The position numbers and the translations under genes were made by a program. A stretch of 64,000 nucleotides of DNA from an uncultured SAR116 cluster alpha proteobacterium (GTDB lineage: Bacteria; Pseudomonadota; Alphaproteobacteria; Puniceispirillales; Marisalimonadaceae), in the NCBI GenBank assembly GCA_902517815.1, contig CABYED010000001.1, positions 62,001-126,000 of the forward strand, given 5' to 3'. The notes below the pieces were generated by a model that searched no databases, was not told the DNA's origin, and saw only the letters and a list, made by a program, of their open reading frames with translations. Each line of letters starts with the position of its first letter. The first letter of the stretch is position 1. Positions 13,168 to 29,968 of the stretch are shown piece by piece.

Positions 13168-14307
13168 CTATGCATTTGGCATAAGTATCTGCCTAACTAC
13201 TTTACCTTTTGACAGTTTATCAAAACCTTCATTCAAGTTATCAAATGTAATTTTTCCATCTATTAATTTATCTACTGGTAAACGTCCTTGTTTATATAAA
13301 TTTAGAAATCTAGGTACATCTCTTACAGGAACACATGAACCCATATAGCTTCCTAAAATTGATTTTTCCTGTGCAACTAAATCACTATGATTAAAACTAA
13401 ACTGCGTATTAATAGGTGATAAACCAGCAGTGACCACAGACCCTCCATATCTTATAATTTGGTAGGCTGTATCCATAGCTTGTATTACCCCAGCTAGATC
13501 AATAGCATAGTCAACACCACCATTTGTTAGATCTCTAATTTCCTCAACCATATTGTTGTTTTTACTATCAAAACAATGTGTTGCCCCAAGTTCTTCTGCT
13601 CTACTAAATTTTGATGGATCGATATCAATTGCAATTATAGTTTCAGCTCCTGCTAGTTTTGAGCCAATTATACCATTTAGCCCTACACCTCCTAGTCCAA
13701 TAATGGCAACTGAATCACCTGGTCTTATTCTAGCGGTATTGATTACAGCTCCAACACCTGTCATAACAGCACATCCAAAAAGAGCTGCATCCTCTATATT
13801 AAAGGCTTTATCAATTACAACAACTGATCCTCTATCAACTACATTATATTGAGACATACATGAGATACCAGTATGGTGATTAAGTCTATTTCCATTCATA
13901 TCTGTCAATCTGCTTCCACCTGACATTAAATCACCTTTACCTTTTGTTGCAGCTGCAAGTTCACATACTTGAGGTCTTCCTTCAAGACACCTTCTACATC
14001 TTCCACATGAAGGAGAGAATTGAAAAGCAACGTGATCTCCAACTTTTATATCTTTTACCGCACTTCCCAACTCAACTACTTCACCCGAACCTTCATGACC
14101 AATTACTAATGGCAAAGGCATTATTCTGGATCCATTAATAACTGACAAATCAGAATGACATAGACCTGCACCCATAACCTTCACGAGAACTTCATTTTCT
14201 AGAGGAGGTGATATTTTGATATCCTCAATAGATAATGGCTTAGAGTCCCTATATGGCTCAGCTAATTTGTTATTTCTAATAACTGCAGCTTTACATGTAA
14301 TTGACAT
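13168..14307 (-). CDS. Zn-dependent alcohol dehydrogenase, class III-like
   Basis: A 379-aa medium-chain dehydrogenase, the last gene of the nitrile hydratase operon. Catalytic zinc ligands are Cys50 in AGLCHSD and His71-Glu72 in GHEGSG. The structural zinc site is Cys101, 104, 107 and 115 (CGRCRRC...QVC). The NAD-binding loop is GLGGVGLNG. The length and the HHTGISCMSQYNVV region fit the class III / benzyl-alcohol dehydrogenase branch. It starts 1 bp after the activator stop. The substrate is unknown; the operon suggests an alcohol or aldehyde formed in nitrile breakdown. Confidence 0.85.
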   Translation of the reverse strand: MSITCKAAVIRNNKLAEPYRDSKPLSIEDIKISPPLENEVLVKVMGAGLCHSDLSVINGSRIMPLPLVIGHEGSGEVVELGSAVKDIKVGDHVAFQFSPSCGRCRRCLEGRPQVCELAAATKGKGDLMSGGSRLTDMNGNRLNHHTGISCMSQYNVVDRGSVVVIDKAFNIEDAALFGCAVMTGVGAVINTARIRPGDSVAIIGLGGVGLNGIIGSKLAGAETIIAIDIDPSKFSRAEELGATHCFDSKNNNMVEEIRDLTNGGVDYAIDLAGVIQAMDTAYQIIRYGGSVVTAGLSPINTQFSFNHSDLVAQEKSILGSYMGSCVPVRDVPRFLNLYKQGRLPVDKLIDGKITFDNLNEGFDKLSKGKVVRQILMPNA

Positions 14308-14667
14308 TTAAACACTCCTACTTTTAATATGAACTGGTTTGCCATGAGGAGTGGACAAATAAGCTTGTATCCAATCTTCTTTTAATAGCACCAAAGTATC
14401 CTGATTACTTATTTTCTTCATAATGAGAATTTCTTCAAGTGCATTTAACCAACAAGAAAAATAATCATTACTACCATCTAAATTTTTTGAGAGTGATCTT
14501 TGTTTTTTGAGGGACTCTCCAAAAACTTCTACAAACTCTTTCCAGCTAAAATTTTCTTTCTCTGACAATTGAACTGTAATCGCAAACAATTGACTATGCC
14601 AAGGATTTTGGAAAACAATTTGTTCTTCGGATTTATTTATAAAAGGTAAACTATAATCAGATTTCAT
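14308..14667 (-). CDS. Nitrile hydratase accessory/activator protein
   Basis: A 119-aa protein resembling the small nitrile hydratase activator (P14K/NhlE type). It has the family features FQNPWHSQLFAITVQLSE, FSWKEFVEVFGE and the C-terminal TPHGKPVHIK. Activators of this type complex with the alpha subunit to insert cobalt and oxidise the metal-ligand cysteines. The gene order alpha-beta-activator is the usual one for cobalt nitrile hydratases. It lies 17 bp after the beta subunit. Confidence 0.82.
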   Translation of the reverse strand: MKSDYSLPFINKSEEQIVFQNPWHSQLFAITVQLSEKENFSWKEFVEVFGESLKKQRSLSKNLDGSNDYFSCWLNALEEILIMKKISNQDTLVLLKEDWIQAYLSTPHGKPVHIKSRSV

Positions 14668-14684
14668 TTTTATCTTTTTTTAAA

Positions 14685-15425
14685 TTAATTTGGAAATAAT
14701 TTTAAGTATGGTTCCCACAAGTCTAAAAGGATACTGTCATTTTGACTCTCGGCTAATTCTCCCCATAGCTCTGAAGATTTAAACTCTACAGTATATAGTG
14801 GTAAAGGATTCTCTCCTAAACCATGAGCATTTTTATCAGGAAAAACATGATTATTCTTATAAGAATTAATTACACCCACTCTACCCATAGCATATTTTGG
14901 TAAACGTGTGTGTCCCCCACTAATATCTTTATTTGGATTATAATTTTGTGTAATAACTTTATCCCCTACATTAAAAACAGGACTTACATTTGTATCTCTA
15001 ATAGAAGGGCCTCCCCAACCTAGTGTTTTCTGAACATCTTTTGCTAACCAGGTTCTTTGATCAAGTTTAACATCCTTATCAGAAAATTTTCTTAAAGTTC
15101 CCTTTTCAGCGGCAAAAACATATTCTTTTAATTCATTTAACGAAATAAGTTCCTTATCTATTAAAAGATTAGTAAGGGCTGCTAGCCATTTTTCGTAATA
15201 AGAAAAATTTATATAATCTTTTGGCGGTAAACATTCTCTATAATGACGACTAATATCTAGATTCCATTCTCCTAAAGCTCCAGCAGCAAGAGTAATCGCC
15301 CATGCCTTTGCATGCCATTTATACTTAAAAGTTGGTTCAAAGTTAGTTACTTCATTTTCGGCATCTCTTGGAAGAGGAATTAATCCATCACCAAAACGAC
15401 CACCCATGTCGTGCAATCTACTCAT
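14685..15425 (-). CDS. nthB: Nitrile hydratase, beta subunit
   Basis: A 246-aa beta subunit of nitrile hydratase, which hydrates R-CN to the amide. Recognisable segments are the start [14 protein letters not shown], the helix with [13 protein letters not shown], and the SH3-like C-terminal domain: [30 protein letters not shown] and [15 protein letters not shown]. Arginines that hydrogen-bond to the metal-centre sulfenate/sulfinate groups would lie in these regions. Its ATG overlaps the alpha-subunit stop by 4 bp (ATGA), a coupling expected for a 1:1 complex. Confidence 0.93.
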
Positions 15426-16063
15426 TTTATTTCCTTTGGTAATCCAGTACCTATCATTGAATTTCTAGTAACCAATTCTGCAAGTTCATTTTCATTCATA
15501 TTTTCAGTACCTTTTGGTCTCATTGGTAATACCAAATATCTTATTTCAGCGGTTGAGTCCCATACCTTTATTTGAACTTTTGGATCTAAAGGCAGACCAA
15601 ATTCTAAAAGAACTTTTCTAGGTTCTCTTACTGTTCTAGATCTATATTCATCACTTTTATACCAAGTTGGGGGAATGCCAAGGACTGGCCATGGATAACA
15701 ACTACATAATGTGCAAACTATCACATTGTGAGTTTCAGGTGTGTTTTCAACAACAACCATATTTTCACCCTGTCTACCTTGGTAACTCAATTCTCTAATT
15801 GCTGACGTAGCATCATTCAAAAGTCTTTTTTTATATTCTGGATCTACCCAGGCTTTAGCTACTACTTTTGCACCATTTTTAGGGCCTATTCGATTCTCAT
15901 AAGTGTCAATCAATTCATCTAAAGTTTTAGAGTCAATTAAACCTTTGTTTAAAAGCAAAGTCTCAACAGCTTTTACTCTCAATTCAGGATCTGATGGTAA
16001 ATGTGAATGCGCGTGATCATGTTGATGATGATGGTCATCAGTAATATTTTTCTTTTCACTCAT
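15422..16063 (-). CDS. nthA: Nitrile hydratase, alpha subunit, cobalt type
   Basis: A 213-aa catalytic subunit. The metal site is VCTLCSC with Cys117, Cys120 and Cys122. Threonine at position 118 (CTLCSC) marks the cobalt type, as opposed to iron-type CSLCSC. Flanking [20 protein letters not shown] and [11 protein letters not shown] are standard for the family. The N-terminus has seven histidines within residues 11-21 ([11 protein letters not shown]), which is not part of the core fold. The start has an 'AGAGAT'-like weak ribosome-binding site. Beta and activator follow directly; an alcohol dehydrogenase gene precedes by 32 bp. Confidence 0.95.
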
Positions 16064-16095
16064 AATCTAATCTCTTTTTTTTATAATTTTATATT

Positions 16096-17142
16096 TTAAT
16101 TTGGTATTAAAACTATTCTTCCATTAACTTTACCCGATCGAAGATCAGACATTGCTTGATTTGCTGTTTCTAATCCTTGTTTTTTAACTGGTATTAATTT
16201 TATTTTGCCTGATTTAATAATATTAACTAGTTCTTTTAATTCTTTTAGTTCACCTACATAAGAACCTCTAAGTGTCATAGATTTCATTGGAACTAGCGGC
16301 AAGGATAGTTTAAGTGATCCTCCGTATAAACCTACTACAATTACCATACCTCCTTTTTTTACAAGTGACAGACCTAAGTCAGTCGTTTCAGGTCTGCCAA
16401 CAAAATCTATAGCTGCAGAGGCTCCAATTCCAATTTTATTCCTTATTTCAGTTTCATCATCTGGTGAAAAAGCCTCGTAAGCACCGGCTTCAATAGCTTT
16501 TCCCCTCTTATCTGGATCATTATCTATTACTAGAATTTTTGCTTTGTGTGTTGCAGGAGACAATAAAATACCATTTATGCCAACCCCACCTGCTCCAATA
16601 ATTATAATCCAATCATCTTTTGAAGTTAAAGGAATTTTTTTCAAAGCGCTAAATGCTGTTAGTCCTGAACATGCATATGGTGCTGCTTGTGCAGGGTCCA
16701 TATCACCATAAGAAACTATATATTTACTATGAGGTACAATAATATGATCTGAATAACCTCCATTAAGACGAGCACCTAAATATTTAGGCATCTCACACAA
16801 TGTTTCATTATCATCCAAACATGCTTCACACTTTCCACACCCAATCCAAGGAAATACTATTCCAGAATCACCTATTTTAATGTCTTTTACATTCTCACCA
16901 ATAGCGACTACAGTTCCTGTTATCTCATGACCTGGTGTAAATGGTAATTTTGTACCTCTATCAGCTAAAGTTATTTTTTTTCCATCACCAAGATCAAAAT
17001 AACCATCAGCTAGGTGAAGATCACTATGACATACTCCGCAAGCGGTAATCTTTACAAGAACTTCTTCTCCTCTAGGTTGAGGATTTTCATATTCTCTTAA
17101 TTCTAAAGGTTCTCCAAACTTAACAACCTGATAACTCTTCAT
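16096..17142 (-). CDS. Zn-dependent alcohol dehydrogenase
   Basis: A 348-aa medium-chain alcohol dehydrogenase. Catalytic zinc ligands are Cys38 (CGVCHSD) and His72-Glu73 (PGHE). The structural zinc cysteines are 102, 105, 108 and 116 (CGKCEAC...LC). The NAD(P) loop is GAGGVGING. It belongs to the AdhP-like branch and is clearly different in sequence from the other dehydrogenase of the operon, so the two probably act on different steps. It lies between an ICL-superfamily lyase and the nitrile hydratase alpha gene on the same strand. The substrate is unknown. Confidence 0.86.
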   Translation of the reverse strand: MKSYQVVKFGEPLELREYENPQPRGEEVLVKITACGVCHSDLHLADGYFDLGDGKKITLADRGTKLPFTPGHEITGTVVAIGENVKDIKIGDSGIVFPWIGCGKCEACLDDNETLCEMPKYLGARLNGGYSDHIIVPHSKYIVSYGDMDPAQAAPYACSGLTAFSALKKIPLTSKDDWIIIIGAGGVGINGILLSPATHKAKILVIDNDPDKRGKAIEAGAYEAFSPDDETEIRNKIGIGASAAIDFVGRPETTDLGLSLVKKGGMVIVVGLYGGSLKLSLPLVPMKSMTLRGSYVGELKELKELVNIIKSGKIKLIPVKKQGLETANQAMSDLRSGKVNGRIVLIPN

Positions 17143-17167
17143 TAGACAATCCCCTATTTAAATCTTA

Positions 17168-18067
17168 TCAACTTCTTTTTGAAGTCTCGTACTTGCTTGA
17201 CATTTTATAATAATCGTTAAATCCAATTTTTTGCCTTAAATCACTGAAATCTAATAATAACTCAGATCTATCTTTATCTTTCTTGAGCAAATTAAGTGAC
17301 GTTGTCATTGCCTTCATTGCTGAACTCATAACAGTTAGAGGATAAACAGCGAGTTTGTAACCAATTTCTGTTAATTCTTTCATGGATAAATTTGGCGTAA
17401 TACCTCCTTCAACAATATTAGCTATTTTAACACCAGGAACTTCTTTACAGATCGTTTTCATTTCTTCTTTATTTTTTGGAGCTTCAATAAACATGATATC
17501 TGCCCCAAGCTCATAAAATTTTTGTGATCTTGAAATTGCTTCACTCAGACCATGAGTATGATTGGCGTCAGTTCTTGCCATAATTAAAATATCATATCCT
17601 TCATTTCTCATATCACTAGCAGCTCTTATACGATCGAACGCTTCTTCTCGATTTACCACGTCTTTTCCTGGTGTGTGACCACAACGTTTGGGAGCTAATT
17701 GATCTTCTATTAATATGCCAGCACAACCTGCCTTTGAACATTCTTTTAATGTTCTTCGAACATTCATAGCATTTCCGTACCCTGTATCTCCATCTACAAT
17801 CATCGGTATATTAATCGCATTGCAGATGTTATTTGCCTGATCAAAAACCTCTGAGAAAGTCATAAGTCCAAGATCTGGAGCCCCTATCCTAGAAGCGGAC
17901 GCAGCAAAACCTGACATAAAAGTCACATCAAAATTAGCTTGTTCGATTAATTTAGCAGACAAGGCGTCAAAACATGACGGTATAGGAATAAAGTTTTTTT
18001 CTTTTAAAATTTTTCTTAAATTATCAGGTTGACTTATTTTATTAATTAAAGATGTTTTATTTTTCAT
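17168..18067 (-). CDS. Isocitrate lyase / PEP mutase superfamily enzyme
   Basis: A 299-aa TIM-barrel enzyme of the ICL/PEPM superfamily. Mg-binding aspartates are in VDGDTGYGN (91-99). KRCGH (127-131) carries the catalytic cysteine typical of lyases that break a C-C bond next to a hydroxylated carbon, such as 2-methylisocitrate lyase or dimethylmalate lyase. The canonical DADTGYG is DGDTGYG here. Products would be pyruvate, glyoxylate or a related oxoacid plus a carboxylate. It is encoded between the TRAP permease and an alcohol dehydrogenase, which points to catabolism of the imported compound. Confidence 0.82.
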   Translation of the reverse strand: MKNKTSLINKISQPDNLRKILKEKNFIPIPSCFDALSAKLIEQANFDVTFMSGFAASASRIGAPDLGLMTFSEVFDQANNICNAINIPMIVDGDTGYGNAMNVRRTLKECSKAGCAGILIEDQLAPKRCGHTPGKDVVNREEAFDRIRAASDMRNEGYDILIMARTDANHTHGLSEAISRSQKFYELGADIMFIEAPKNKEEMKTICKEVPGVKIANIVEGGITPNLSMKELTEIGYKLAVYPLTVMSSAMKAMTTSLNLLKKDKDRSELLLDFSDLRQKIGFNDYYKMSSKYETSKRS

Positions 18068-18101
18068 TTCAAAATCCTCTAAATAACTATTTCATAAAAA
18101 T

Positions 18102-19376
18102 TTATAATTTAAAAGGAATATAGAGTGCTAAATCAGGCCAAATATACATTACAAAAACTGTGAAAATCATCATCACTATAAAAGGGAACACTCCTTTGGC
18201 GACCTCTCCTAATTGAGTTTTTGCTACAGACTGTATTACATAAAGATTCAATCCCACAGGCGGTGTAATCAAAGCACATTCAACCATTATGACCATAAAA
18301 ATACCAAACCAAATAGGATCAACTCCTATTGCCATTGCTGCTGGCAAAAGAACTGGCACCATTATTATAACCATCGACAAAGTTTCAAAAACCAAGCCCA
18401 TAGCAACTAATATTATACATACAACAATCATGAAAAGAGCTTTTGTATCTATAGTAGAACTAATGAAATAAGATATATCCTGAGGAATTCTATATAGTGC
18501 AATTGCCTTTCCAAATGTCTTTGCACATGCAACTATAATCAAAATAGCAGCTGTGGTTACCATTGACTCGAATACAGCTTCTTTAAAATCATTCCAAGTT
18601 AAAGTTTTTAAAATAAGTACAGTTATAATTAAAGACAGAGAAAAACCTATTGCGGCAGCCTCAGTTGGAGTGAATACACCAGTATAAATTCCACCAAGTA
18701 TTAATACGGCTAAAATAATTGTAGGAATTACTTTTTTGGAAGTATTTTTTTTAACCTGCCAACTGCTTGGTTCTAATTTTTTAAAACCACCAAAAAATTG
18801 GGAAAATACTATAGAGTAAATAATAAACAAAGATATTAAGAAAATTCCTGGCCCAATACCCGCAAGAAATAAAGCAATCACAGACTCCTCTGTAATGAAA
18901 CCATATACAATCATTGGCAAACTTGGAGGTATTAATATTCCTAATGTTCCACCAGCCGCCAAAAGACCATAAACAAAATTTTTATTATATCCCCTTTTGA
19001 TCATTTCTGGTATGGCAACAACACCAATGGTGGCTGCAGTTGCAACAGATACTCCAGAAATAGCAGCAAAAATACCACACGAAATAATTGTTGCTACGGC
19101 TAAACCACCAGGCCAGTGTCCAACCCAGGCCTGTACAGCATTGAATAAATCTTTTCCACATCCACCTTTTAAAAGGACATTACTCATAAGTAGGAAAAGT
19201 GGTACAGCTAGTAAAATAAAACCATCAAGGGTAGATAAGATTGCCTGAGGTGCCATCAAAGGTGAAAAACCACCAAAAATCAACATTAATAGACCAAGAA
19301 AACCAAGAGAGAAAGATACTGGTAACCCAGATAATAATAAAACAAACATTAAAGTTAAAACTAAAAGTATAGTCAT
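18102..19376 (-). CDS. dctM: TRAP transporter large permease (DctM)
   Basis: A 424-aa, roughly 12-helix membrane protein of the TRAP-T large subunit family, which drives Na+-coupled uptake. Characteristic segments include ISGVSVATAATIGVVAIPEM, AAGGTLGILIPPSLPMIVYG and VFTPTEAAAIG, plus ALITPPVGLNLYVI near the C-terminus. It starts 2 bp after the small permease gene, so the two form a pair. The imported substrate is unknown; position inside the nitrile hydratase operon suggests a nitrile, amide or organic acid. Confidence 0.92.
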   Translation of the reverse strand: MTILLVLTLMFVLLLSGLPVSFSLGFLGLLMLIFGGFSPLMAPQAILSTLDGFILLAVPLFLLMSNVLLKGGCGKDLFNAVQAWVGHWPGGLAVATIISCGIFAAISGVSVATAATIGVVAIPEMIKRGYNKNFVYGLLAAGGTLGILIPPSLPMIVYGFITEESVIALFLAGIGPGIFLISLFIIYSIVFSQFFGGFKKLEPSSWQVKKNTSKKVIPTIILAVLILGGIYTGVFTPTEAAAIGFSLSLIITVLILKTLTWNDFKEAVFESMVTTAAILIIVACAKTFGKAIALYRIPQDISYFISSTIDTKALFMIVVCIILVAMGLVFETLSMVIIMVPVLLPAAMAIGVDPIWFGIFMVIMVECALITPPVGLNLYVIQSVAKTQLGEVAKGVFPFIVMMIFTVFVMYIWPDLALYIPFKL

Positions 19377-19378
19377 AA

Positions 19379-19870
19379 TTAATGATCACTCTCGGGTGGT
19401 TCTATATTTTTTAATAATTTTATAATTTCAAAAATTGACTGTATCAAAAGTAAAAAAAAGCATAATGGAACAGATAACTCAGCAATCCATGACGGAAGAT
19501 TTAACAAACTCCCAGTTGTCCTACCTCTAAAAAAAGAATCGTAAAAAATTTCAAAACCAAAAATCAAAACATATGATGAAAAAATAATTAAGATTATCAT
19601 TATTAAGATATTTATTATTTTTTTATGAGTCTTTGATAATCTATTAATTACTAAATTTATTTGAATATGTTTTCTTGATTTTAATGCCCAAGGCATAGCT
19701 AGTAAGGTACCATATATTAATGAAAGTTGACTAAGTTCAGCTGCCCATGATGTAGGTGCTAAAAAAAAGTATCTAGCAATTACTTCATATGAGAGCATAA
19801 AACCAGCTATGCAGAATAACCATGCTGATAACCAAGCAAGTAGATCTATAATTTTTTCAAAATGAATCAT
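19379..19870 (-). CDS. dctQ: TRAP transporter small permease (DctQ)
   Basis: A 163-aa protein with four hydrophobic segments, the usual topology of the TRAP small subunit. The family-typical TSWAAELSQLSLIYGTLLAMPWAL, which places a conserved Trp-Ala-Glu-Glu-like motif in helix 2, is readable (shown split: TSWAAELSQL / SLIYGTLLAMPWAL), followed by SRKHIQINLV. It partners with the adjacent DctM. A hairpin separates it from dctP upstream. Confidence 0.85.
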   Translation of the reverse strand: MIHFEKIIDLLAWLSAWLFCIAGFMLSYEVIARYFFLAPTSWAAELSQLSLIYGTLLAMPWALKSRKHIQINLVINRLSKTHKKIINILIMIILIIFSSYVLIFGFEIFYDSFFRGRTTGSLLNLPSWIAELSVPLCFFLLLIQSIFEIIKLLKNIEPPESDH

Positions 19871-19879
19871 AATAGAAAT

Positions 19880-19902
19880 AGAGAGAGTTTAAAACTCTCT
19901 CT
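19880..19902 (-). other. Hairpin between dctP and dctQ
   Basis: A perfect 11-bp inverted repeat (arms 19880-19890 and 19892-19902, AGAGAGAGTTT and its complement) sits in the 41-bp gap between dctP and dctQ. In the minus-strand transcript it is not followed by a strong U-tract, so it is more likely an RNA-stabilising or partial attenuation element at the dctP 3' end than a full terminator. A second TRAP operon in this window has a hairpin at the same place. Confidence 0.6.
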
Positions 19903-19911
19903 TTTTAAAAT

Positions 19912-20907
19912 TTATAATTTAGAAGCTGCATCTAAAAGCTGAGCACCAAGTGATCCAGCATTTTTCTTGTAATCTTCATAAACTGGTTTAGATGCAGACT
20001 TAAAAGCATCAATATCAGCTTTACTTGGAGTTACAATTTTCATACCTTTCGACTTAGCTAAATCATATGCTTCCTGCTCAATCTTAGCAACGTTGTCACG
20101 CACATCTTTTTCAGCAATTTCTGCAGATTTAATAATGATGTCCTTTTGTTTTGTAGATAGACTATTAAACCATTTTGTATTAGCAACAACAATAAACTCA
20201 ATTACGCCATGATTAGTTTTTGTAATAGTATCCATAACTTCAAATAGTTTTCTTGACTTCACACCAGATACGCCTGTCATCCCAACATCAACTGTACCTC
20301 TTTGATAAGCTAAATATTGTTCGGAACCAGAGATCAATGTGGGTGCTCCTCCTGCTGCTTTCACAAAAGTACCTAAGGTCTTTCCAAAAACTCTAACTTT
20401 TTTTCCTTTCATATCAGAAGGATTTTTAATAGCCTGACCTTTTGAAAGCATTATTGCGTTACCATAGGCTTGCCACCATAATACAGTTGAACCAGTATTC
20501 TTAATTGCGTTGTCTATCGGTCCTCTGATTGAAGAACCTTTGGAAACAGCTTTTCTTACTTTTTCGTCAGTATTTAACAAGAATGGTTGGTAGAATAAAT
20601 CAACTGCTGGAATATCACCAACATATCTTGTTAATGATGCCACTCCTGATTCAATCGATCCAGAACCAACTGCTGCAGGTACTTCTTTGTCTTTATAAAG
20701 CTGCGCTGAGTCGTAAATTTCGACCTTAATTTCTCCATTTGATCTGCTTTCAACTTCTTTTTTAAAGAGTAATAAATTTTGACCTAAGTGACTTTTCATA
20801 GGCAACTGCAATGATATCCTCATCGTTACATCTGCCGCGAAAGCATTAGCAGTAAAGAATAAGCTCGTAAAACTTATCATTAGTATTTTAATTAATTTAT
20901 TCATCAT
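19912..20907 (-). CDS. dctP: TRAP transporter substrate-binding protein (DctP)
   Basis: A 331-aa periplasmic binding protein with a clear signal peptide (hydrophobic core about residues 8-20, cleavage after ANAFA). Family features include RISLQLPMKSHLGQNLLLFK, GSGSIESGVASLTRY and the selectivity-region KGKKVRVFGKTLG, whose Arg normally salt-bridges the substrate carboxylate. This implies an organic acid, or at least an anionic group, on the ligand. An AGGAG lies close upstream; the second ATG (20904) has the better spacing. First TRAP gene of the operon, 31 bp after the E1-like gene. Confidence 0.9.
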   Translation of the reverse strand: MMNKLIKILMISFTSLFFTANAFAADVTMRISLQLPMKSHLGQNLLLFKKEVESRSNGEIKVEIYDSAQLYKDKEVPAAVGSGSIESGVASLTRYVGDIPAVDLFYQPFLLNTDEKVRKAVSKGSSIRGPIDNAIKNTGSTVLWWQAYGNAIMLSKGQAIKNPSDMKGKKVRVFGKTLGTFVKAAGGAPTLISGSEQYLAYQRGTVDVGMTGVSGVKSRKLFEVMDTITKTNHGVIEFIVVANTKWFNSLSTKQKDIIIKSAEIAEKDVRDNVAKIEQEAYDLAKSKGMKIVTPSKADIDAFKSASKPVYEDYKKNAGSLGAQLLDAASKL

Positions 20908-20938
20908 AACTCCTATCCGTTATTATTATTAAAATTAC

Positions 20939-23236
20939 TTAGGCAAATTTAAACCCTAAGTTACTTATATTACCAGAGTCAATTGCAAACTCTGTCAAAA
21001 GTTCTTTTATATTTCCAGTTTGTCCAAAGCGATCAACTCCAAGAGGTATTACTTTATGACCAAGTACAGAGCCTAACCAAGATAATGTTAATTGATGACC
21101 ATCAATTACTGTCAAAATCTTCGTGTCTCTTGGAACATCCTTTAATAAATTTTCAACATGAGATTCGGTTTTATTTTGATTTGGAGATAAATGTTTATCT
21201 TTCCAGTTACTTAATAATATATCTGAACTCGTAATAGCTAATACCCCAATATCTCTAAACTTTTCTCCTAAATTAGCAGTTGCTTCAATAACTTCTGCTG
21301 CTATAACACCTTGATAAGCTAATATGATTTCTGGATTTGAACCAGGTTGCTTTAACCAATATCCTCCCTTTAAAATTTGATCTTGTAAATCTTTAGTTAA
21401 TTCTCTAGATGGTTGATCAATAGATCGAGTGCTTAATCTGATATATACTGAACCCCCATTTTCATCTTGCAAATAATTGAAACTGTAGTTCATTATAATT
21501 GATAGTTCATCTGCAAAAGCAGGTTCAAAACTTAATAGGCCTGGCTGACTTATACCAGTTAAGGGAGTCCCTATAGATTGATGTGCACCGCCCTCTGGTG
21601 CTAGGGAGACACCAGAGGGAGTTCCTACAATTATAAATCTTGCATCTTGATAACAGGCATAGTTAAGAGCATCTAAACCTCGTGCTATAAACGGATCATA
21701 AACTGTGCCTATAGGGAACAATCTTTCATTAAATAACTCATGAGAAAGACCAGCAGATCCAAGCATTATAAATAAATTCATTTCAGCTATACCAAGTTCT
21801 ATATGCTGTCCATCTGGAGAAAAAATCCATTTTTGAGCTGAGGGTATTTTCCTATCCTTAAAAATATCAGAATTATCTTTTCTACTGAACAATCCTCTCC
21901 TATTAATCCATGATCCAAGGTTAGTCGAGACTGATACATCGGGTGATGTGGTTACAATTCTTTGGGTAAATTCAGTATCGTTTTTTGCATAAGAGTCTAG
22001 AATTTTTCCAAACGCACTTTGAGTAGATATTTTATTATCATTAATCAAAACAGGTTCATCAATTACTAATTTATTTCCAATAAATTTTCTATGACCAGCT
22101 TTTTGAAAAGGTAAGTTTTTTATATATTCATCTATATTTAAATGTTTTTTGTCATCAGAAAAATTATTCCATTCCTCACCATCATTAATTTCTAATTTAG
22201 ATTTAAAATCGTTCATTTGAGCTTTAGTCATAAGACCAGAATGATTGTCTTTATGGCCCGCTAATGGAGTGCCCCACCCTTTAATTGTATATGCAATGAA
22301 AGCAGTTGGTTTATCATCTTTAATTTTATTAAAGGACTCACATAGAGTAGAAATACAGTGACCACCTAAATTTGACATTAATTCTAAAAACTCAGAATCA
22401 GATCTTTTATTAATTAGATTTGAAATCTCGGATTGATCACCAATATCATCTAAAACTCTTTTCTTAAAAGCTTCGCCACCTTCAAATATTAGGGCTGAAT
22501 ATAATTGATTAGGACAATCATCAATCCATTTTCTTAATTTAGTTCCACCAGGTTCTTTAAATGCTTCTTCTTGTAATTTACCATATTTTAATACTACAAG
22601 GTTCCAATCAAATGCCGAAAAAACAGAACTTAGCCTTTCAGATAGTCCTTCATGGACAACTCCATCAAGTGACTGACGGTTATAATCAATTATCCACCAA
22701 ACATTCCTTAAATCATGTTTCCATCCTTCTTGAAGACACTCATAAACATTACCCTCATCTAACTCTGCATCACCTACTAGAGCTATCATTCTTCCTAATT
22801 GTCTATTATTATAAAATTTTTTTCTTGCAATATAATCCTGAATTAAAGAAATAAAACTTGTCATTGCGACACCCAAGCCTACTGATCCAGTTGAAATGTC
22901 AACATCGTCTATGTCTTTTGTTCTAGACGGGTATGACTGTGCTCCACCAAAGCCTCTAAAATTTTCAATTTTTTCTTTAGTTTGTAATCCGGATAAATAC
23001 TGAATAGCATGAAATACTGGACTAGCATGAGGTTTTACTGCAACTCTATCCTCTGGCCTTAAAATATTAAAATATAAAGCTGTCATTATTGAGACAATTG
23101 ATGCAGAACTTGCTTGATGACCACCAACTTTAAGGCCATCTTGATTTTCTCTTATGTGATTTGCATTATGGATCATCCAACAAGCAAGCCACAACACTTT
23201 CTTTTCAATTTTTTTTAAAATATCAACATCATTCAT
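20939..23236 (-). CDS. Transketolase-fold, homodimeric pyruvate dehydrogenase E1-like (AceE-like) enzyme
   Basis: A 765-aa thiamine diphosphate enzyme. The ThDP/Mg motif runs GDAELDEGN (155-163, with Asp156) to Asn186 in WWIIDYNRQSLDG. HASPVFHAIQYLSG and GFGGAQSYPSR are typical of homodimeric E1 components, and the middle domain has SPDGQHIELGIAEMNLF, with the cofactor-activating glutamate. E. coli AceE has about 890 residues, so this is a shorter relative. Such proteins decarboxylate 2-oxoacids; no E2 or E3 gene is nearby. It is the first gene of the nitrile hydratase/TRAP operon, divergent from an Lrp regulator. Confidence 0.75.
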   Translation of the reverse strand: MNDVDILKKIEKKVLWLACWMIHNANHIRENQDGLKVGGHQASSASIVSIMTALYFNILRPEDRVAVKPHASPVFHAIQYLSGLQTKEKIENFRGFGGAQSYPSRTKDIDDVDISTGSVGLGVAMTSFISLIQDYIARKKFYNNRQLGRMIALVGDAELDEGNVYECLQEGWKHDLRNVWWIIDYNRQSLDGVVHEGLSERLSSVFSAFDWNLVVLKYGKLQEEAFKEPGGTKLRKWIDDCPNQLYSALIFEGGEAFKKRVLDDIGDQSEISNLINKRSDSEFLELMSNLGGHCISTLCESFNKIKDDKPTAFIAYTIKGWGTPLAGHKDNHSGLMTKAQMNDFKSKLEINDGEEWNNFSDDKKHLNIDEYIKNLPFQKAGHRKFIGNKLVIDEPVLINDNKISTQSAFGKILDSYAKNDTEFTQRIVTTSPDVSVSTNLGSWINRRGLFSRKDNSDIFKDRKIPSAQKWIFSPDGQHIELGIAEMNLFIMLGSAGLSHELFNERLFPIGTVYDPFIARGLDALNYACYQDARFIIVGTPSGVSLAPEGGAHQSIGTPLTGISQPGLLSFEPAFADELSIIMNYSFNYLQDENGGSVYIRLSTRSIDQPSRELTKDLQDQILKGGYWLKQPGSNPEIILAYQGVIAAEVIEATANLGEKFRDIGVLAITSSDILLSNWKDKHLSPNQNKTESHVENLLKDVPRDTKILTVIDGHQLTLSWLGSVLGHKVIPLGVDRFGQTGNIKELLTEFAIDSGNISNLGFKFA

Positions 23237-23358: not shown

Positions 23359-23826
23359 TTGAGCAATATTGATAAAACAGATCAAAAAATTATTTTTTTT
23401 CTTCAGCAAAATGGAAAATTAACTAATTTTGAATTAGCTGAAAAAGTTGGTTTATCACCTTCTCCTTGCTTAAGAAGAGTAAAAACCTTAGAGCAAAAAG
23501 GTTTAATAGTTGGTTACACAGCTATTATTGATGAAATTACTTATGGTTATCCAGTAACTGCTTTTGTATCTGTGAGATTAGAGAATCAAACTGATCAAAT
23601 TTTAAAGTCATTTGAAAAAGAAATAATATCTTTAGATGCTGTTATGGATTGTTGGTTAGTAACTGGAAATAGAGATTATTTATTAAGAGTTGTTGCAACT
23701 GACTTAAAAAACTATGAAATCTTTATGAGAGAAGAACTAACAAAGGTTAAAGGTATTGCATCAATAGAAACAAATTTTGCTCTGGGAAGAGTTAAGACAA
23801 TAAATACCTTACCTATAAATTATTAA
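23359..23826 (+). CDS. Lrp/AsnC family transcriptional regulator
   Basis: A 155-aa regulator. The N-terminal helix-turn-helix reads TNFELAEKVGLSPSPCLRRVKTL, shown as TNFELAEKVGLSPSP / CLRRVKTLEQKGLI, and the C-terminal RAM domain (about residues 65-150) contains VMDCWLVTGNRDYLLRVV. Lrp-type proteins form octamers and respond to amino acids or small metabolites. The start is TTG at 23359, preceded by ATAGG. It is divergent from the E1-like/TRAP/nitrile hydratase operon and likely controls it, and is followed 20 bp later by an alpha/beta hydrolase gene. Confidence 0.88.
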   Translation: MSNIDKTDQKIIFFLQQNGKLTNFELAEKVGLSPSPCLRRVKTLEQKGLIVGYTAIIDEITYGYPVTAFVSVRLENQTDQILKSFEKEIISLDAVMDCWLVTGNRDYLLRVVATDLKNYEIFMREELTKVKGIASIETNFALGRVKTINTLPINY

Positions 23827-23846: not shown

Positions 23847-24752
23847 TTGATAAAGAATTTAAAAAATATAAATGCTGGAGATTTAAATGTAAGCTACTTT
23901 GAGGCGGGTTCAAGAAAAGGTTTACCCGTAATACTTCTGCATGGTTTCCCATACGATATTCACGCTTACAAAGAAGTGGTGCCGTTATTGATATCTAGCT
24001 GCAGAATAATCATTCCTTACTTAAGAGGATATGGAAACACAATTTTTTTACAAGATGACACCTTGCGTTCAGGTCAACAAGCAGCACTTGGATTTGACTT
24101 GTTGAAACTTATGGACGCACTTAAAATAGATAAAGCAATTTTAGGGGGATATGATTGGGGCGGTAGGGCAGCTTGCATAGTTGCTGCCCTATATCCTAAT
24201 AGGTGTTTAGGTTTAGTTTCCTGCAACGGTTACAATATTCAAGACATAGAAAAATCTTCAATACCAGTTAAACCTGAAATTGAACAAAAATTATGGTATC
24301 AATATTTTTTCCATAGTGAAAGGGGACGAAATGGTCTTTTAAATCAACGTCATGATTTTATAAAATATATATGGAAAACGTGGTCACCAACTTGGAATAT
24401 TGATAATAATTTATATAATTTAAGTGCTAATGCTTTTGAGAATCCTGATTTTGTAGAAGTAGTCATTCATAGTTACCGGCATCGATTTGGGCTAGTATGT
24501 GGTGACAAAAGGTTTGAAAAAATAGAAAAGAAATTATCTAACCAACCTGTTATATCTGCGCCCGCCATAACAATTGATGGTGATAATGACGGCGTGACCG
24601 GATTATCTGATATTGCAAAAATTAAACAAAAATTTTCAAGTCATCTTAAACATGAAATTCTTCCAAATATTGGCCATAATGTGCCTCAGGAGGACCCTAA
24701 AAATTTTTCCGAAGCCATTTTACATATAATGAAGACTCACAAAAATTTATAA
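23847..24752 (+). CDS. Alpha/beta hydrolase, haloalkane dehalogenase/epoxide hydrolase-like
   Basis: A 301-aa alpha/beta hydrolase. The oxyanion motif is HGFP (32-35), and the nucleophile elbow GGYDWGGRAA places an aspartate (Asp103) rather than serine at the catalytic position, as in epoxide hydrolases and dehalogenases. The acid and base appear in IDGDNDGV and NIGHNVPQEDP. The start is an in-frame TTG with no strong Shine-Dalgarno sequence; a nearby ATG is out of frame. It follows the Lrp gene in the same direction. Its 3' end overlaps the convergent aminotransferase by 6 bp. Confidence 0.8.
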   Translation: MIKNLKNINAGDLNVSYFEAGSRKGLPVILLHGFPYDIHAYKEVVPLLISSCRIIIPYLRGYGNTIFLQDDTLRSGQQAALGFDLLKLMDALKIDKAILGGYDWGGRAACIVAALYPNRCLGLVSCNGYNIQDIEKSSIPVKPEIEQKLWYQYFFHSERGRNGLLNQRHDFIKYIWKTWSPTWNIDNNLYNLSANAFENPDFVEVVIHSYRHRFGLVCGDKRFEKIEKKLSNQPVISAPAITIDGDNDGVTGLSDIAKIKQKFSSHLKHEILPNIGHNVPQEDPKNFSEAILHIMKTHKNL

Positions 24753-25955
24753 ATTCGCAATCTTTGTGGGTATTCCAAATTCTTTTCTACATATTATAGC
24801 CAAACGTTTAATGCCCTCATCAATTTCTTTAATTGAAGGATTACCAAAGCAAAGTCTCATTTTATGTCTACCACTTTTGTTAATTGACCATTCATTTCCT
24901 GGATTTATAGCCACACCGTCTTTTAATGCCAACTCGTAAAGACGAGATGTGTCTACTTTTTTGTGCATATCAACCCATACAAAAATTCCACCATCAGGTT
25001 TTTTATATTCAGCTGAAGATCCAAAATATTTGTCCAAAGCATTGCAAATAGCTTCTGATTTTTTTTGCAATTTAATTTTTAGTGTTTTGATATGTGAGTT
25101 AAAATATTCCTTACAAAACTCTGCCAGTGCCATTTGTTCTAATGATCCGCTACCTGCATCAGTTTTATAAGGTAATATTCTTGATAAAACTTCCCAATTG
25201 GCAATTAAATAACCAACTCTAAGTGCAGGTGCAATTGATTTAGAAAAAGATCCACAGTAAGTTACATATCCCTCTTTATCAAATGACTTTATCGCAGGGG
25301 GTCTTTCTTTTTCAAAAAGAAGATCTGCGTAACAATCATCTTCAAAAATAGGTATTTGATATTTTTTTGATAATTTTATTAGTTGTTTCCTTTTAGCAAC
25401 AGACATTACTGTTCCAGTTGGGTTTTGAATTGTTGGGATCGTGTAAATATATCTTGGGATTATTTCTTTTTTCAGAAGATCATTCAACTCTTGCTCTAGG
25501 ATTTTTAGATTCATTCCATCTTTTTCTAAGGGTATTCCAACCATATTTACACCAAGTCTTTTCAGCCTTGAAATAGTTCCTCCATAATTTTCCTCTTCAA
25601 TTATTACTGTATCTCCTTTTCTAAGAAATGTCTGATTTACAAGATCTAAAGCTTGCAATGAACCAGAAAGAACTAATATCTCTCTTTCGGAGCAATTAAT
25701 TTTTGCACTAATTTTTAACTGATTTGATATAAATTTTCTTAATGGTAAAAAGCCCTGAGGACCACTTTCTAGTCCATATTTACCTAAAGTTTTTCCCTCT
25801 TTTAATATTATTTTATTGAGAGAGTCCTTTATAGATTGCACTGGGATACTCTCAGCATCAATATGCCCTCCTACAAAATTATATTTTGGAAAACCTTTCC
25901 ATTCCACTGCTGGTTTTAGAGCATCTAAATGTAAAAAATTATTAATGTTAAACAT
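24747..25955 (-). CDS. PLP-dependent aminotransferase, class I/II (MocR/LysN-like)
   Basis: A 402-aa fold-type I aminotransferase. The pyridoxal phosphate lysine is in YCGSFSKSIAPALRVGY, and the phosphate and ring contacts are in SGSLQALDLV, PTIQNPTGTVMS and FEDDCYADLLF. The sequence is closest in style to the aminotransferase half of MocR regulators and to 2-aminoadipate or valine-type transaminases, but it lacks an N-terminal DNA-binding domain. It is monocistronic, divergent from a small SCP2-like gene. Substrate specificity is undetermined. Confidence 0.85.
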   Translation of the reverse strand: MFNINNFLHLDALKPAVEWKGFPKYNFVGGHIDAESIPVQSIKDSLNKIILKEGKTLGKYGLESGPQGFLPLRKFISNQLKISAKINCSEREILVLSGSLQALDLVNQTFLRKGDTVIIEEENYGGTISRLKRLGVNMVGIPLEKDGMNLKILEQELNDLLKKEIIPRYIYTIPTIQNPTGTVMSVAKRKQLIKLSKKYQIPIFEDDCYADLLFEKERPPAIKSFDKEGYVTYCGSFSKSIAPALRVGYLIANWEVLSRILPYKTDAGSGSLEQMALAEFCKEYFNSHIKTLKIKLQKKSEAICNALDKYFGSSAEYKKPDGGIFVWVDMHKKVDTSRLYELALKDGVAINPGNEWSINKSGRHKMRLCFGNPSIKEIDEGIKRLAIICRKEFGIPTKIANL

Positions 25956-26047: not shown

Positions 26048-26416
26048 ATGCTATCAATCGAAAATTGGATAAACAACATAAATTCCAATAAAAGATTAAT
26101 TGAAAATGGTCGTTGGTTAAATATCACTTTCACATTTGGTATTGGAGACAAAGATTATTTATTTGAGATCCTGAGTGGAAATGTATTGTCTATAAATGAA
26201 AGAAAAATTTTAACACAAAGTGGAACTTTTAAAATTTATGGACAAAGGGATAGTTGGAATAAACATTGGTTAAAAATACCTCCTAGAGATTATCATGATA
26301 TCTTTGCTATGCTTGCAAGAAAAATTATATATATAGATGGAGATCTAACCCCATTTATGCAAAACCTTCAATATTTCAAAGATCTAATAGCTTCTAATAG
26401 GGATATGTATGACTGA
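26048..26416 (+). CDS. Small protein, possibly SCP2-like
   Basis: A 122-aa soluble protein without a signal peptide. I do not recognise it with certainty. Its layout of short beta-strands (RWLNITFTFGIG, YLFEILSGNVLSI, TFKIYGQRDSW) followed by AMLARKIIYIDGD and a C-terminal helix recalls the sterol-carrier-protein-2 fold that binds lipids or acyl-CoAs. This is a structural guess. The gene overlaps the following alpha/beta hydrolase by 8 bp, so the two are translationally coupled and probably work together. Confidence 0.6.
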   Translation: MLSIENWINNINSNKRLIENGRWLNITFTFGIGDKDYLFEILSGNVLSINERKILTQSGTFKIYGQRDSWNKHWLKIPPRDYHDIFAMLARKIIYIDGDLTPFMQNLQYFKDLIASNRDMYD

Positions 26417-27259: not shown

Positions 27260-28036
27260 TTAACCAGTTTTTTCTATATTCCCACATACACTGACTGCTT
27301 GACCAGAAATATTTCTTCCAAGAGGGCTGCATAAAAAATGTGCTTGCTCTGCTAAATCGTCATGCGTCACAAATCTATTTAATGATGCGCCGGATAAAAT
27401 TTCGTCTTTCATTACTTCGAATGATAGTTTTTTAACTTTAGCCTTTGCTTCAATAACTCTATTTTGTCTCTCGCCTTCAACAATACCTGGCAAAAGTGCG
27501 TTTGCTCTTATACCCCGAGGACCTAGTTCAATTGCTAAACTCTTAATCATGCCTATAACCGCCCATTTTGTAGCTGCGTAAGGTATCCTATAAGCAAAGC
27601 CAACTCTGCCAGCAACAGAAGATACTGAAAGAATTGATCCATCGTTATTCATACGTGGAACAACTAGTCTCATTGTTTCAAAATGACTAGTAATATTAAC
27701 TTGTAAACACTCTTGCCAACCTCCTAGCGTTTGCTCACCAACACCAGCAGTCTCTCCTGCAATCCCAGCATTATTTACTATAATGTCAATTTCTTTTAGG
27801 TAATCAAACCCGGCTTCAACCATAGATGAGATCAATTGGGTTTGTCTAAGGTCACATACAACTGCTTTAATATTATCGTCAACATCATTGACTTTTTTCA
27901 CAGATCCAGCATTGATGTCACATACAAAGACTTTGGCTCCTGCTTTGTCAAATCTTTTAGCTATTGCATACCCAATCCCATCAGCTCCAGCTGTTATAAG
28001 AGCTTTTTTACCTTCAAGAAGTCTTTCGTAGTTCAT
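27260..28036 (-). CDS. SDR family oxidoreductase
   Basis: A 258-aa classical short-chain dehydrogenase. The cofactor loop is TAGADGIGYAIAKRF, with NNAGIAGE after strand 4, SVSSVAGR for the catalytic serine, and YAATK for the Tyr/Lys pair. FVCDIN at the end of strand 2 carries an acidic residue, which favours NAD over NADP. It is the last gene of a three-gene unit (dehydrogenase-BKACE-SDR), 10 bp behind the BKACE gene, and probably oxidises or reduces an intermediate of the same pathway. Confidence 0.88.
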   Translation of the reverse strand: MNYERLLEGKKALITAGADGIGYAIAKRFDKAGAKVFVCDINAGSVKKVNDVDDNIKAVVCDLRQTQLISSMVEAGFDYLKEIDIIVNNAGIAGETAGVGEQTLGGWQECLQVNITSHFETMRLVVPRMNNDGSILSVSSVAGRVGFAYRIPYAATKWAVIGMIKSLAIELGPRGIRANALLPGIVEGERQNRVIEAKAKVKKLSFEVMKDEILSGASLNRFVTHDDLAEQAHFLCSPLGRNISGQAVSVCGNIEKTG

Positions 28037-28046
28037 TTTTAACTTT

Positions 28047-28979
28047 CTAATTTATGTTAGTATTACTTTTTCCTTTTAGCCCTAACATTTGTCTTGCTTC
28101 ATCAGGTGTAGCAATCTCAAGTGAAAGCCCTTCTAAGATTTCTCTTACCCTTTTTACTTGATCAGCATTTGTCTTTGCTAAATTACCAGGACCATCCCAT
28201 AAAGAATCTTCAAGACCTACACGCACATGAGAACCTAAAGAAGCACCAGTTGCATTCATCCTCATTTGTATTGCTCCAGCGCCCACAACCGACCATTCAT
28301 AACCTACTTCACCAAATAATTTATCAGCTGTTTTTTTCATATGTAATAAATTATCAGCATCTGCTCCTATACCACCCATTATTCCCATAACAAATTGAAT
28401 AAAGTAAGGACCTTTTAACATACCTTCTCTATGAAAATAATGGAGATTATATAAATGGCCAACATCATAACATTCAAACTCAAACTTAGTTCCATTTTCA
28501 TACCCAAATGTCATTATGTTTTCAATATCTTCAAAAGTATTTTTAAAAAGAGAATACTTACTTTTTTCAAGCATCTCTTTTTCCCATGGATATTTTAACT
28601 GATTATGTCTTTTGAGCATTGGGAAAAGTCCAAAGTTCATTGAACCCATATTCAAAGACGCAAGTTCTGGTTTAAAATGCATTGCAGGTTTCATTCTCTC
28701 TTCCACAGTCATTTGTGGACCACCTCCAGTTGTAATATTTATGACTGCATCACAAGATTTGTGAATAGTTGGTAGAAATTTTTGAAATTCTTCTGGATCT
28801 TGTGTAGGGTGTCCATCAACCTCGTCTCGTGCGTGCAAATGCAGAACAGCTGCACCAGCTTCATGTGCTGCTAATGAATGTTCTATAACCTCTTCTGCTG
28901 TTACAGGCAAAAACTCTGACATTGAAGGTGTATGTATCGCTCCTGTAACAGCGCAACTGATAATTACTTTTTTAGCCAT
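28047..28979 (-). CDS. 3-keto-5-aminohexanoate cleavage family protein (BKACE, DUF849)
   Basis: A 310-aa TIM-barrel enzyme of the beta-keto acid cleavage family, which uses acetyl-CoA to split a beta-keto acid into acetoacetate and a new acyl-CoA. The zinc-binding HLHAR (His47, His49), the N-terminal VTGAIHTPSMS and the segment NITTGGG are characteristic. PDEARQMLGLKG at the end is also typical. The start codon follows the upstream dehydrogenase stop directly. The dehydrogenase would supply its beta-keto substrate. The precise substrate (dehydrocarnitine, 3-ketohexuronate-derived acid or other) is unresolved. Confidence 0.9.
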   Translation of the reverse strand: MAKKVIISCAVTGAIHTPSMSEFLPVTAEEVIEHSLAAHEAGAAVLHLHARDEVDGHPTQDPEEFQKFLPTIHKSCDAVINITTGGGPQMTVEERMKPAMHFKPELASLNMGSMNFGLFPMLKRHNQLKYPWEKEMLEKSKYSLFKNTFEDIENIMTFGYENGTKFEFECYDVGHLYNLHYFHREGMLKGPYFIQFVMGIMGGIGADADNLLHMKKTADKLFGEVGYEWSVVGAGAIQMRMNATGASLGSHVRVGLEDSLWDGPGNLAKTNADQVKRVREILEGLSLEIATPDEARQMLGLKGKSNTNIN

Positions 28980-29915
28980 TTAAATATCCTCTCCTAATTC
29001 ACATTTAAGCTTTCTAATTAATGCAATCATTTTATTTCTTTTTTCTACTCTATTATCCCTTTGATCATAAGATAATCTATTTCTTTGATCCATTTCTAAT
29101 TTATTTAAATATTGTTCAGAATATTCAGGGACACTATTTTGCTCCTTAGCTAAATTTTTTATACCCTTTTTGTATCGAGTAAAAGAATCTTTAATACCCT
29201 CTGGTGCATTTAAATCCATAATCTCAAAGGGACCCATGAATGCCCATCTTATACCTAATGCGTGTTTTAAAGCTATATCGATATCTTCCATTGAAGCAAA
29301 ACCTCCTTCGTGGAGTCTTACTGCTTCGTTAAGAAGAGCACCCTGCAATCTATTTAAAACAAAACCCTCTGCCTCTTTATTTACAGTAATAGCTGCATAT
29401 TTAGCTTTTTTGTATATTGATACAGCTTGTTTAATAATTTTTGGGTCAGTATTTACTCCACCAGCAACTTCAACAAATGGAACAATATGGGGTGGCAAAG
29501 CGGGATGGGCATTGATACATCTAAACTTATGTTTAACAAGCTCGGAAATTTTAGAAATCAGAAGATAAGATGAAGATGATGCAATAATTGTATTTTCTGG
29601 CGATAATTTATCTAATTGTTCAAACACTGATTTTTTTAGCTCTAAATCCTCTAACACACTTTCTTGAACTAAGATTGAATCATTGCAAGTTTCTTCAATA
29701 GTACAGTTCAACTTTATGTTAGAATTTATCTTCTCTTCATCTATTTCAGGGTTAATGATACGTAAATCTTGGATTAATTTATTCGCTAAACTTTTAAATT
29801 TTGTAGAACTATCGTCACTTTTATCATAAACAAAACATTTAAAACCAGCATTCGCAAAACCTATTGCCCAGCTTGCTCCAATTAGACCAACACCACAGAT
29901 ACCAATTTTATCCAT
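28980..29915 (-). CDS. 3-hydroxyacyl-CoA dehydrogenase family, CRYL1/carnitine-dehydrogenase-like
   Basis: A 311-aa NAD-dependent beta-hydroxyacid dehydrogenase. It has the Rossmann GVGLIGASWA, then ASSSSYLL, the catalytic His in CINAHPALPPHIVPFVEV, and a C-terminal domain with LNRLQGALLNEAVRL and GPFEIMDLNAPEG. The latter resembles lambda-crystallin (L-gulonate 3-dehydrogenase) and L-carnitine dehydrogenase more than fatty-acid enzymes. Its product would be a beta-keto acid, the natural substrate of the BKACE encoded next. ATG at 29915 is chosen over TTG at 29921 because AGGAT lies at a sensible distance. Confidence 0.82.
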   Translation of the reverse strand: MDKIGICGVGLIGASWAIGFANAGFKCFVYDKSDDSSTKFKSLANKLIQDLRIINPEIDEEKINSNIKLNCTIEETCNDSILVQESVLEDLELKKSVFEQLDKLSPENTIIASSSSYLLISKISELVKHKFRCINAHPALPPHIVPFVEVAGGVNTDPKIIKQAVSIYKKAKYAAITVNKEAEGFVLNRLQGALLNEAVRLHEGGFASMEDIDIALKHALGIRWAFMGPFEIMDLNAPEGIKDSFTRYKKGIKNLAKEQNSVPEYSEQYLNKLEMDQRNRLSYDQRDNRVEKRNKMIALIRKLKCELGEDI

Positions 29916-29926
29916 TATCAAATCCT

Positions 29927-29958
29927 AAAAAAAAACCGCATCTTTCTGATGCGGTTTT
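29927..29958 (-). terminator. Rho-independent terminator of the second TRAP operon
   Basis: On the minus strand an 11-bp stem (GATGCGGTTTT pairing with AAAACCGCATC, arms 29948-29958 and 29932-29942, loop of 5) is followed by nine consecutive U residues (29927-29935 in reverse). It lies 10 bp beyond the large-permease stop and 12 bp before the start of the dehydrogenase gene, so it separates the TRAP operon from the dehydrogenase-BKACE-SDR unit or allows only partial read-through. Confidence 0.85.
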
Positions 29959-29968
29959 CATTAAGTTG

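Follow-up and report, generated by a model that had tools for sequence, protein, structure and literature searches.

A nitrile hydratase operon of SAR116 bacteria with a stable core and a separable TRAP-lyase cassette: a putative assembly of three modules beside an Lrp-type regulator

The present analysis concerns a window of 64,000 nucleotides (the whole stretch of DNA analyzed) from contig CABYED010000001.1 (positions 62,001-126,000) of an uncultured alphaproteobacterium of the SAR116 cluster, a group that forms the order Puniceispirillales (PMC12262181), and more precisely the nitrile hydratase (NHase) operon that it carries (Table 1). The source genome (2.04 Mb in 62 contigs) is 89% complete, and many of the relatives compared below are partial single-cell or metagenome genomes. 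Ten open reading frames (ORFs), all on the minus strand, follow one another in the order E1 (an AceE-type thiamine diphosphate (ThDP) enzyme), dctP, dctQ and dctM (a tripartite ATP-independent periplasmic (TRAP) transporter), icl (a lyase of the isocitrate lyase/phosphoenolpyruvate mutase (ICL/PEPM) superfamily), ADH1 (a Zn alcohol dehydrogenase (ADH)), nhA, nhB, the activator gene and ADH2. The order, strand and ends given for these genes by a first-pass annotation of the window were confirmed by the ORF coordinates and by Pfam and NCBIfam; Pfam backs the names of all ten genes and NCBIfam those of nine, with no match for dctQ. Intergenic gaps range from 0 to 41 bp, nhA and nhB share a 4-bp overlap, and from this spacing only we infer a single transcript. 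The upstream neighbor of E1, absent from the first-pass list, is a divergent gene encoding an Lrp/AsnC-family regulator, separated from E1 by 122 bp. A promoter/terminator scan stayed at background (66 found against 68.6 expected; 6 against 5.8), and a conserved Lrp operator, sought by eye in the AT-rich lrp-E1 intergenic region, gave no clear motif. A ten-pair stem-loop lies between dctP and dctQ (19880-19902, minus strand), in a scan that was at background overall.

Table 1. Genes of the NHase operon and its divergent regulator, with positions in the window.
Feature	Coordinates	Strand	Basis
Lrp/AsnC-family regulator, divergent from E1	23359..23826	+	Pfam HTH_24, AsnC_trans_reg
E1, short AceE-type ThDP enzyme, 765 amino acids (aa)	20939..23236	-	E. 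coli pyruvate dehydrogenase (PDH) E1 alignment; NCBIfam aceE 171 bits
dctP, TRAP solute-binding protein, optional module	19912..20907	-	PF03480
dctQ, TRAP small permease, optional module	19379..19870	-	PF04290
dctM, TRAP large permease, optional module	18102..19376	-	PF06808; TIGR00786 above cut-off
icl, ICL/PEPM-superfamily C-C lyase, KRCGH motif, optional module	17168..18067	-	PF13714, PF00463
ADH1, Zn alcohol dehydrogenase	16096..17142	-	PF08240, PF00107
nhA, Co-type nitrile hydratase alpha, motif CTLCSC	15422..16063	-	TIGR01323
nhB, nitrile hydratase beta	14685..15425	-	TIGR03888
Nitrile hydratase accessory protein (activator)	14308..14667	-	TIGR03889
ADH2, Zn alcohol dehydrogenase, class I/III-like	13168..14307	-	PF08240, PF00107

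Comparison of the 42 NHase loci of the source family (hereafter f1, genera g1 to g4), i.e., the source locus and 41 others covering all f1 genomes with an NHase, revealed that the stable core of this operon consists of the divergent Lrp gene and of E1-ADH1-nhA-nhB-activator-ADH2. E1, ADH1, nhA, nhB and the activator gene are found together in 41 of these loci (the L050 contig stops within ADH1), a complete ADH2 is seen in 41 (it is truncated in L076), and Lrp is present in every f1 stretch that reaches its position. No more than 14 of the 42 loci contain all ten genes. The conservation of gene order across relatives that had been expected from the first-pass annotation therefore stands for E1-ADH1-NHase-ADH2 but not for the TRAP and lyase genes, which come and go. 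The recurrence of the core is far beyond chance. The identity levels and the constant Lrp agree with one inherited block, and the comparison suggests that E1, the ADHs and NHase matter together in f1. ADH1 resembles archaeal NAD-dependent ADHs (closest solved structure, the NAD-dependent 2eer) and the closest solved relatives of ADH2 are animal class I/III ADHs. ADH2 was found at 78% identity or more in 43 f1 genomes; relatives at E 1e-100 or better are present in 58 of the 385 sampled genomes of the class, those from outside the order reaching 71% identity, and neither NHase nor E1 occurs at any of the 17 such places fetched. Within this sample, the E1-ADH-NHase-ADH block appears to be confined to f1. 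In L076, the truncated ADH2 is followed by genes not seen there elsewhere, one of them a copy of a TRAP large-permease gene; this may reflect a rearrangement or an assembly fault.

The genes that vary between E1 and ADH1 encode a full TRAP transporter set (DctP, DctQ and DctM, all recognized by Pfam) and the lyase. The latter appears to be an off-type ICL/PEPM member (259 bits against a cut-off of 354.4 for PrpB, and also below the cut-offs of the other named enzymes in the NCBIfam table), whose closest solved relative is petal death protein 1zlp. Arg172 of DctP, a residue that presumably has a carboxylate role in TRAP binding proteins, is invariant in 16 aligned sequences of such proteins; a structure prediction of DctP from a 16-row alignment was unusable (mean pLDDT of 36.2). 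Among the 41 scorable f1 loci (one of the 42 is unscorable), 14 have both the TRAP and the lyase genes in the operon, 14 have just the lyase gene (which is thus present in 28) and 13 lack the two. Whichever gene comes next after E1 always starts within 214 bp, so that the module joins and leaves cleanly.

The distribution of dctP points in the same direction. It was detected at E 1e-70 or better in 30 of the 136 genomes of the order, and its placements, sorted manually, fall into several classes: (i) inside the E1 operon in 16 genomes, two of which (G018 and G024) lack an NHase in that stretch of contig, (ii) beside Lrp and E1 without NHase in four genomes of genus g10, (iii) on a contig other than that of E1 or NHase in seven g4 genomes, and (iv) on short contigs in G078 and G094, G069 carrying a 46%-identical relative. 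In the five g4 places fetched out of seven, dctP-dctQ-dctM-icl are together among genes that look like housekeeping ones by eye, and the g4 genomes G052 (84% complete) and G057 (81%) carry the cassette with no E1 or NHase match. In the single-contig genome G082 (2,592,803 bp), the lyase gene, dctP and E1 lie at 1,669,933-1,677,846 (dctP at 1,672,722) and NHase at 251,335, i.e., 1.42 Mb away along the contig and at least 1.17 Mb if it is circular. Furthermore, the dctPQM tree joins the source subclade to g4 (split support of 1.000), whereas the trees of E1 and lrp (0.998), of ADH1-nhA-nhB-ADH2 (1.000) and of icl (1.000) separate them; this conflict with the core trees indicates that the transporter moved between lineages independently of NHase. 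Judging from these comparisons, dctPQM-icl appears to be a separable, relocating cassette that seems to belong with Lrp-E1, and the TRAP system is probably not the importer of a nitrile. The claim of the first-pass annotation that the operon has its own TRAP system for nitrile uptake is therefore poorly supported, since the cassette is separable (absent TRAP in 27 of 41 scorable f1 loci, TRAP and lyase without NHase in other SAR116 genera) and the dct tree is discordant.

The NHase itself looks canonical and of the Co type, with a predicted nitrile-to-amide activity. NHase alpha, beta and activator all score above their NCBIfam cut-offs (312.9 bits against 249.85 for TIGR01323, 207.1 against 152.2 for TIGR03888 and 76.8 against 46 for TIGR03889, respectively), in line with the genuine NHase operon seen at first pass. 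The nhA translation carries the metal motif CTLCSC, in which we take CTLC to be the mark of Co-type enzymes; its best solved matches are the Co-type NHases 4ob1 and 3qxe, and nhB aligns along its length with the Co-type 3qxe_B. NHase alpha was found in 82 of the 136 genomes of the order. In a tree built on 32 of 37 intended rows (the plasmid rows L127, L272, L274, L276 and L277 were left out, the automatic ORF choice having missed or truncated their gene), the f1 sequences form a single clade (support of 0.993). The placement of this clade among SAR116 and plasmid NHases has deep supports of 0.06-0.5 at some nodes, and its origin may be vertical or acquired. The search of viral contigs for NHase alpha gave six pattern matches, none of them a relative.

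Other SAR116 loci carry relatives of these genes. In L107 (9746-13197) and, similarly, in L109, L112 and L113, an NHase-alpha relative 45% identical to nhA is accompanied by a beta subunit divided over two short ORFs of 97 and 157 aa and by a 704-aa molybdopterin oxidoreductase; this alpha scores below both the NHase and the thiocyanate-hydrolase cut-offs. L110 (8693-12443) encodes two proteins of ~330 aa with an amidase between them; the one that was tested is a beta N-terminal domain fused to NHase alpha, and the beta C-terminal part comes after it as an ORF of its own. A match to NHase alpha with two internal stops in a 99%-complete relative (L115, G088:C35:36078-36620) is apparently a decayed gene.

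E1 appears to be an off-type AceE member and not a standard PDH E1. Its score is far below the NCBIfam aceE cut-off of 859.9 bits, and it matches E. coli PDH E1 (886 aa) only from residue 80 to residue 846, the alignment starting at residue 9 of E1, so that the N-terminal stretch of AceE is missing. Residues 1-55 of E. coli E1p are described as forming the E2-binding region (PMC6270654). Since this stretch is missing, E1 probably works without N-terminal attachment to an E2. The E1 search covered the best 80 of 408 relatives and neighbors were counted by tblastn, "nearby" meaning within the fetched stretch, i.e., up to 10 kb on each side with some shorter flanks (5.7 kb in L205 and 5.0 kb in L218). 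None of the 50 E1 loci fetched outside f1 (40 from other bacteria and 10 from another SAR116 family) has an NHase nearby. An Lrp relative is found near E1 in 42 of them (32 of the 40 from other bacteria and all 10 from that second SAR116 family), and Lrp and E1 thus appear to be a widespread alphaproteobacterial pair. Three of these 50 loci, all from Maritalea, have a methionine gamma-lyase gene (mdeA, 68-71% identity) between Lrp and E1, and their Lrp is 52-55% identical to that of the window; an annotated methionine gamma-lyase also lies beside E1 in Sulfitobacter indolifex. This arrangement matches that of the mde operon of Pseudomonas putida, whose regulator MdeR is reported to respond to L-methionine (PMC8707732). 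In Mesorhizobium, methylmalonyl-CoA mutase and carboxylase genes lie near E1, which loosely fits a 2-oxo-acid/propionyl theme.

The first-pass annotation also reported that the operon has no amidase gene. This is borne out by the Pfam and NCBIfam scans, which revealed neither an amidase nor an aldoxime-dehydratase gene among the ten. Checking the rest of the genome revealed seven amidase-signature proteins (GatA and six others) and three nitrilase-superfamily proteins, none encoded in the operon. Aldoxime dehydratase gave no match in this 89%-complete genome, and no control genome matched either. In other SAR116 genera, an amidase is found beside NHase in L090, L099 and L110 (by Pfam) and in L097 (by 64% identity), and same-sized ORFs occupy this place in L091, L092, L096, L104 and L106, as judged by position and size only. 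No amidase of the source genome exceeds 35% identity to these NHase-adjacent ones; those of L090, L097 and L099 are 57-64% identical among themselves. Among 12 plasmid NHase loci (a non-random set, chosen by hand among 40 rows listed out of 179 records, with incomplete PLSDB annotation), an amidase is annotated in just six, so that a missing neighbor amidase is unremarkable. As for the two alpha/beta hydrolases that had been put forward as substitute amidases, the gene at 23847 is a weak candidate, whether as an amidase or as a part of the core, since it is missing from 9 of the 34 relatives' loci with both flanks seen; its matches are to alpha/beta-hydrolase families, none of them an amidase and none above an NCBIfam cut-off. 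The hydrolase at 26409 is conserved in relatives, yet has no amidase-family match.

Building on this gene content, these family assignments and this modularity, we tentatively favor, at slightly below even probability, an Lrp-associated catabolic operon of three separable modules. The first would be Lrp and E1, the latter acting on a 2-oxo acid. The second, carried by some strains, would be dctPQM-icl, which would bring in a carboxylate and give a 2-oxo acid by C-C cleavage. The third would be ADH1-NHase-activator-ADH2, joined to E1 in f1 only. Lrp would sense an amino acid and E1 would decarboxylate the related 2-oxo acid, derived from this amino acid or from the imported carboxylate, to an aldehyde, a product that we predict from the absence of the segment through which E. 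coli E1 attaches to E2. The ADHs would interconvert aldehyde and alcohol. The Co-NHase would convert a nitrile, either made by the cell or diffusing in, to an amide, and this hydration may be separate from or linked to the E1/ADH flow; the amide would then be hydrolyzed by an unlinked amidase or released.

Several points weigh against this proposal. That 41 of 42 loci keep the core may be due to common ancestry in a single family and not to one pathway. The N-terminal truncation was read from this one E1 against that of E. coli, and E1 could borrow a cellular E2 via other contacts. Five of the eight mdeA-like matches near E1 are only 33-42% identical. In the 14 loci where the TRAP genes are in the operon, they start 26-44 bp after E1 and may contribute to the same physiology. 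Lastly, the NHase of Sulfitobacter pontiacus also adjoins a TRAP-like system, whose dctM is 34% identical.

It is also possible, albeit appreciably less probable, that NHase, the ADHs and E1 do not serve one pathway although they have a promoter in common, NHase carrying out ordinary hydration of nitriles to amides with an unlinked amidase, and E1 and the TRAP-lyase genes serving amino-acid or organic-acid use. This would account for E1 being found without NHase in all 50 loci outside f1, for the lack of E1 and ADH relatives in the 12 plasmid NHase loci, for the lack of NHase at all 17 fetched loci with ADH2 relatives (57-71% identity in the rows seen) and for the amidase that sister SAR116 lineages keep beside NHase (L090, L099 and L097). 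However, E1, ADH1, NHase and the activator have stayed joined in 41 of 42 f1 loci, across four genera, while the intervening TRAP and lyase genes vary.

Keto-acid cyanohydrins are known in Pseudomonas, and their chemistry lies behind another explanation, which we consider rather unlikely: an aldehyde or 2-oxo acid from E1 and the ADHs would react with cyanide to form a cyanohydrin, which NHase would convert to a 2-hydroxyamide, as a means of detoxifying cyanide or of gaining nitrogen. It fits the fixed E1-ADH-NHase trio without TRAP and explains how a hydroxynitrile could be made by the cell with neither an importer nor an aldoxime dehydratase (for which the controls, too, were unmatched). However, the annotated part of the neighborhood revealed no gene related to cyanide, and the substrate range of NHase is unreadable from sequence. 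Slightly more doubtful still is a single undescribed pathway made of E1-ADH1-NHase-ADH2 and controlled by an amino acid via Lrp, whose NHase step would act on a cell-made hydroxynitrile (for example a cyanohydrin) from the E1/ADH aldehyde or 2-oxo acid; if true, it would be a SAR116 route linking amino-acid carbon, cyanide and amides. The linear pathway of the first-pass annotation, in which TRAP would import an anionic nitrile to be degraded in sequence by hydration, alcohol oxidation, C-C cleavage and decarboxylation, is the least probable of all and very unlikely, since TRAP is optional, its cassette occurs without NHase in other genera and the dct tree is at odds with the core trees, even though 14 of the 42 loci hold all ten genes side by side and DctP keeps Arg172.

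Beyond the Lrp side, an aminotransferase gene (24747-25955) adjoins in all 34 relatives' loci scored. Its best match is the aminotransferase domain of MocR-like regulators (PdxR, 234.7 bits for a cut-off of 320), starting at model position 93 and without the DNA-binding part. A second catabolic group lies on the minus strand at 27260-31360 and encodes a short-chain dehydrogenase/reductase, a beta-keto acid cleavage enzyme (509.6 against a cut-off of 430 for the NCBIfam 3,5-dioxohexanoate:acetyl-CoA acetone transferase), a relative of 3-hydroxyacyl-CoA dehydrogenases (with weaker matches to carnitine dehydrogenase) and a TRAP large permease.

Overall, the operon appears to set known enzymes in a new genomic context. 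NHases are widespread in this order, whose bacteria abound in the ocean, yet a two-term search found no open-licence paper naming both nitrile hydratase and SAR116, which agrees with the first-pass view that no pathway with this set has been described; the term "nitrile" does not occur in the main text of a 2025 SAR116 pangenome paper (PMC12262181). The fixed E1-ADH-NHase-ADH block is a concrete handle on the SAR116 NHase. It also calls for caution, as reading the ten genes as one pathway would assign TRAP to the nitrile, against which the relatives argue.

Compared with Co-type NHase operons (nthA-nthB-accessory), the SAR116 operon shows the same usual alpha-beta-activator order and the CTLCSC motif, with all three proteins above their NCBIfam cut-offs. 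Co-type operons often include amidase, aldoxime dehydratase and CbtAB genes, none of which lies beside the SAR116 NHase; it is instead adjoined by E1 and two Zn-ADHs, relatives of which are found in none of the 12 annotated plasmid loci. It likewise differs from aldoxime-nitrile pathway operons by the lack of amidase and aldoxime dehydratase. The lyase shares its superfamily match and the KRCGH motif with the group of methylisocitrate lyase, petal death protein and 2,3-dimethylmalate lyase but misses the curated cut-offs, including that of PrpB. E1 is homologous to AceE of PDH complexes over E. coli residues 80-846 but is devoid of the 1-55 E2-binding region, and no E2 or E3 gene is found among the ten. 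The last comparison is with the mde operon (MdeR, MdeA and MdeB, the latter being presumably E1-like) and its Sulfitobacter and Maritalea counterparts. The SAR116 operon differs by the lack of mdeA: none of the ten genes encodes a methionine gamma-lyase and the genome holds no close MdeA, its best PF01053 protein being 37% identical to that of Sulfitobacter. What it has in common with them is a divergently oriented regulator gene of the Lrp type and an E1 resembling AceE, which is 60-61% identical to the E1 adjoining mdeA in the Sulfitobacter and Maritalea counterparts.

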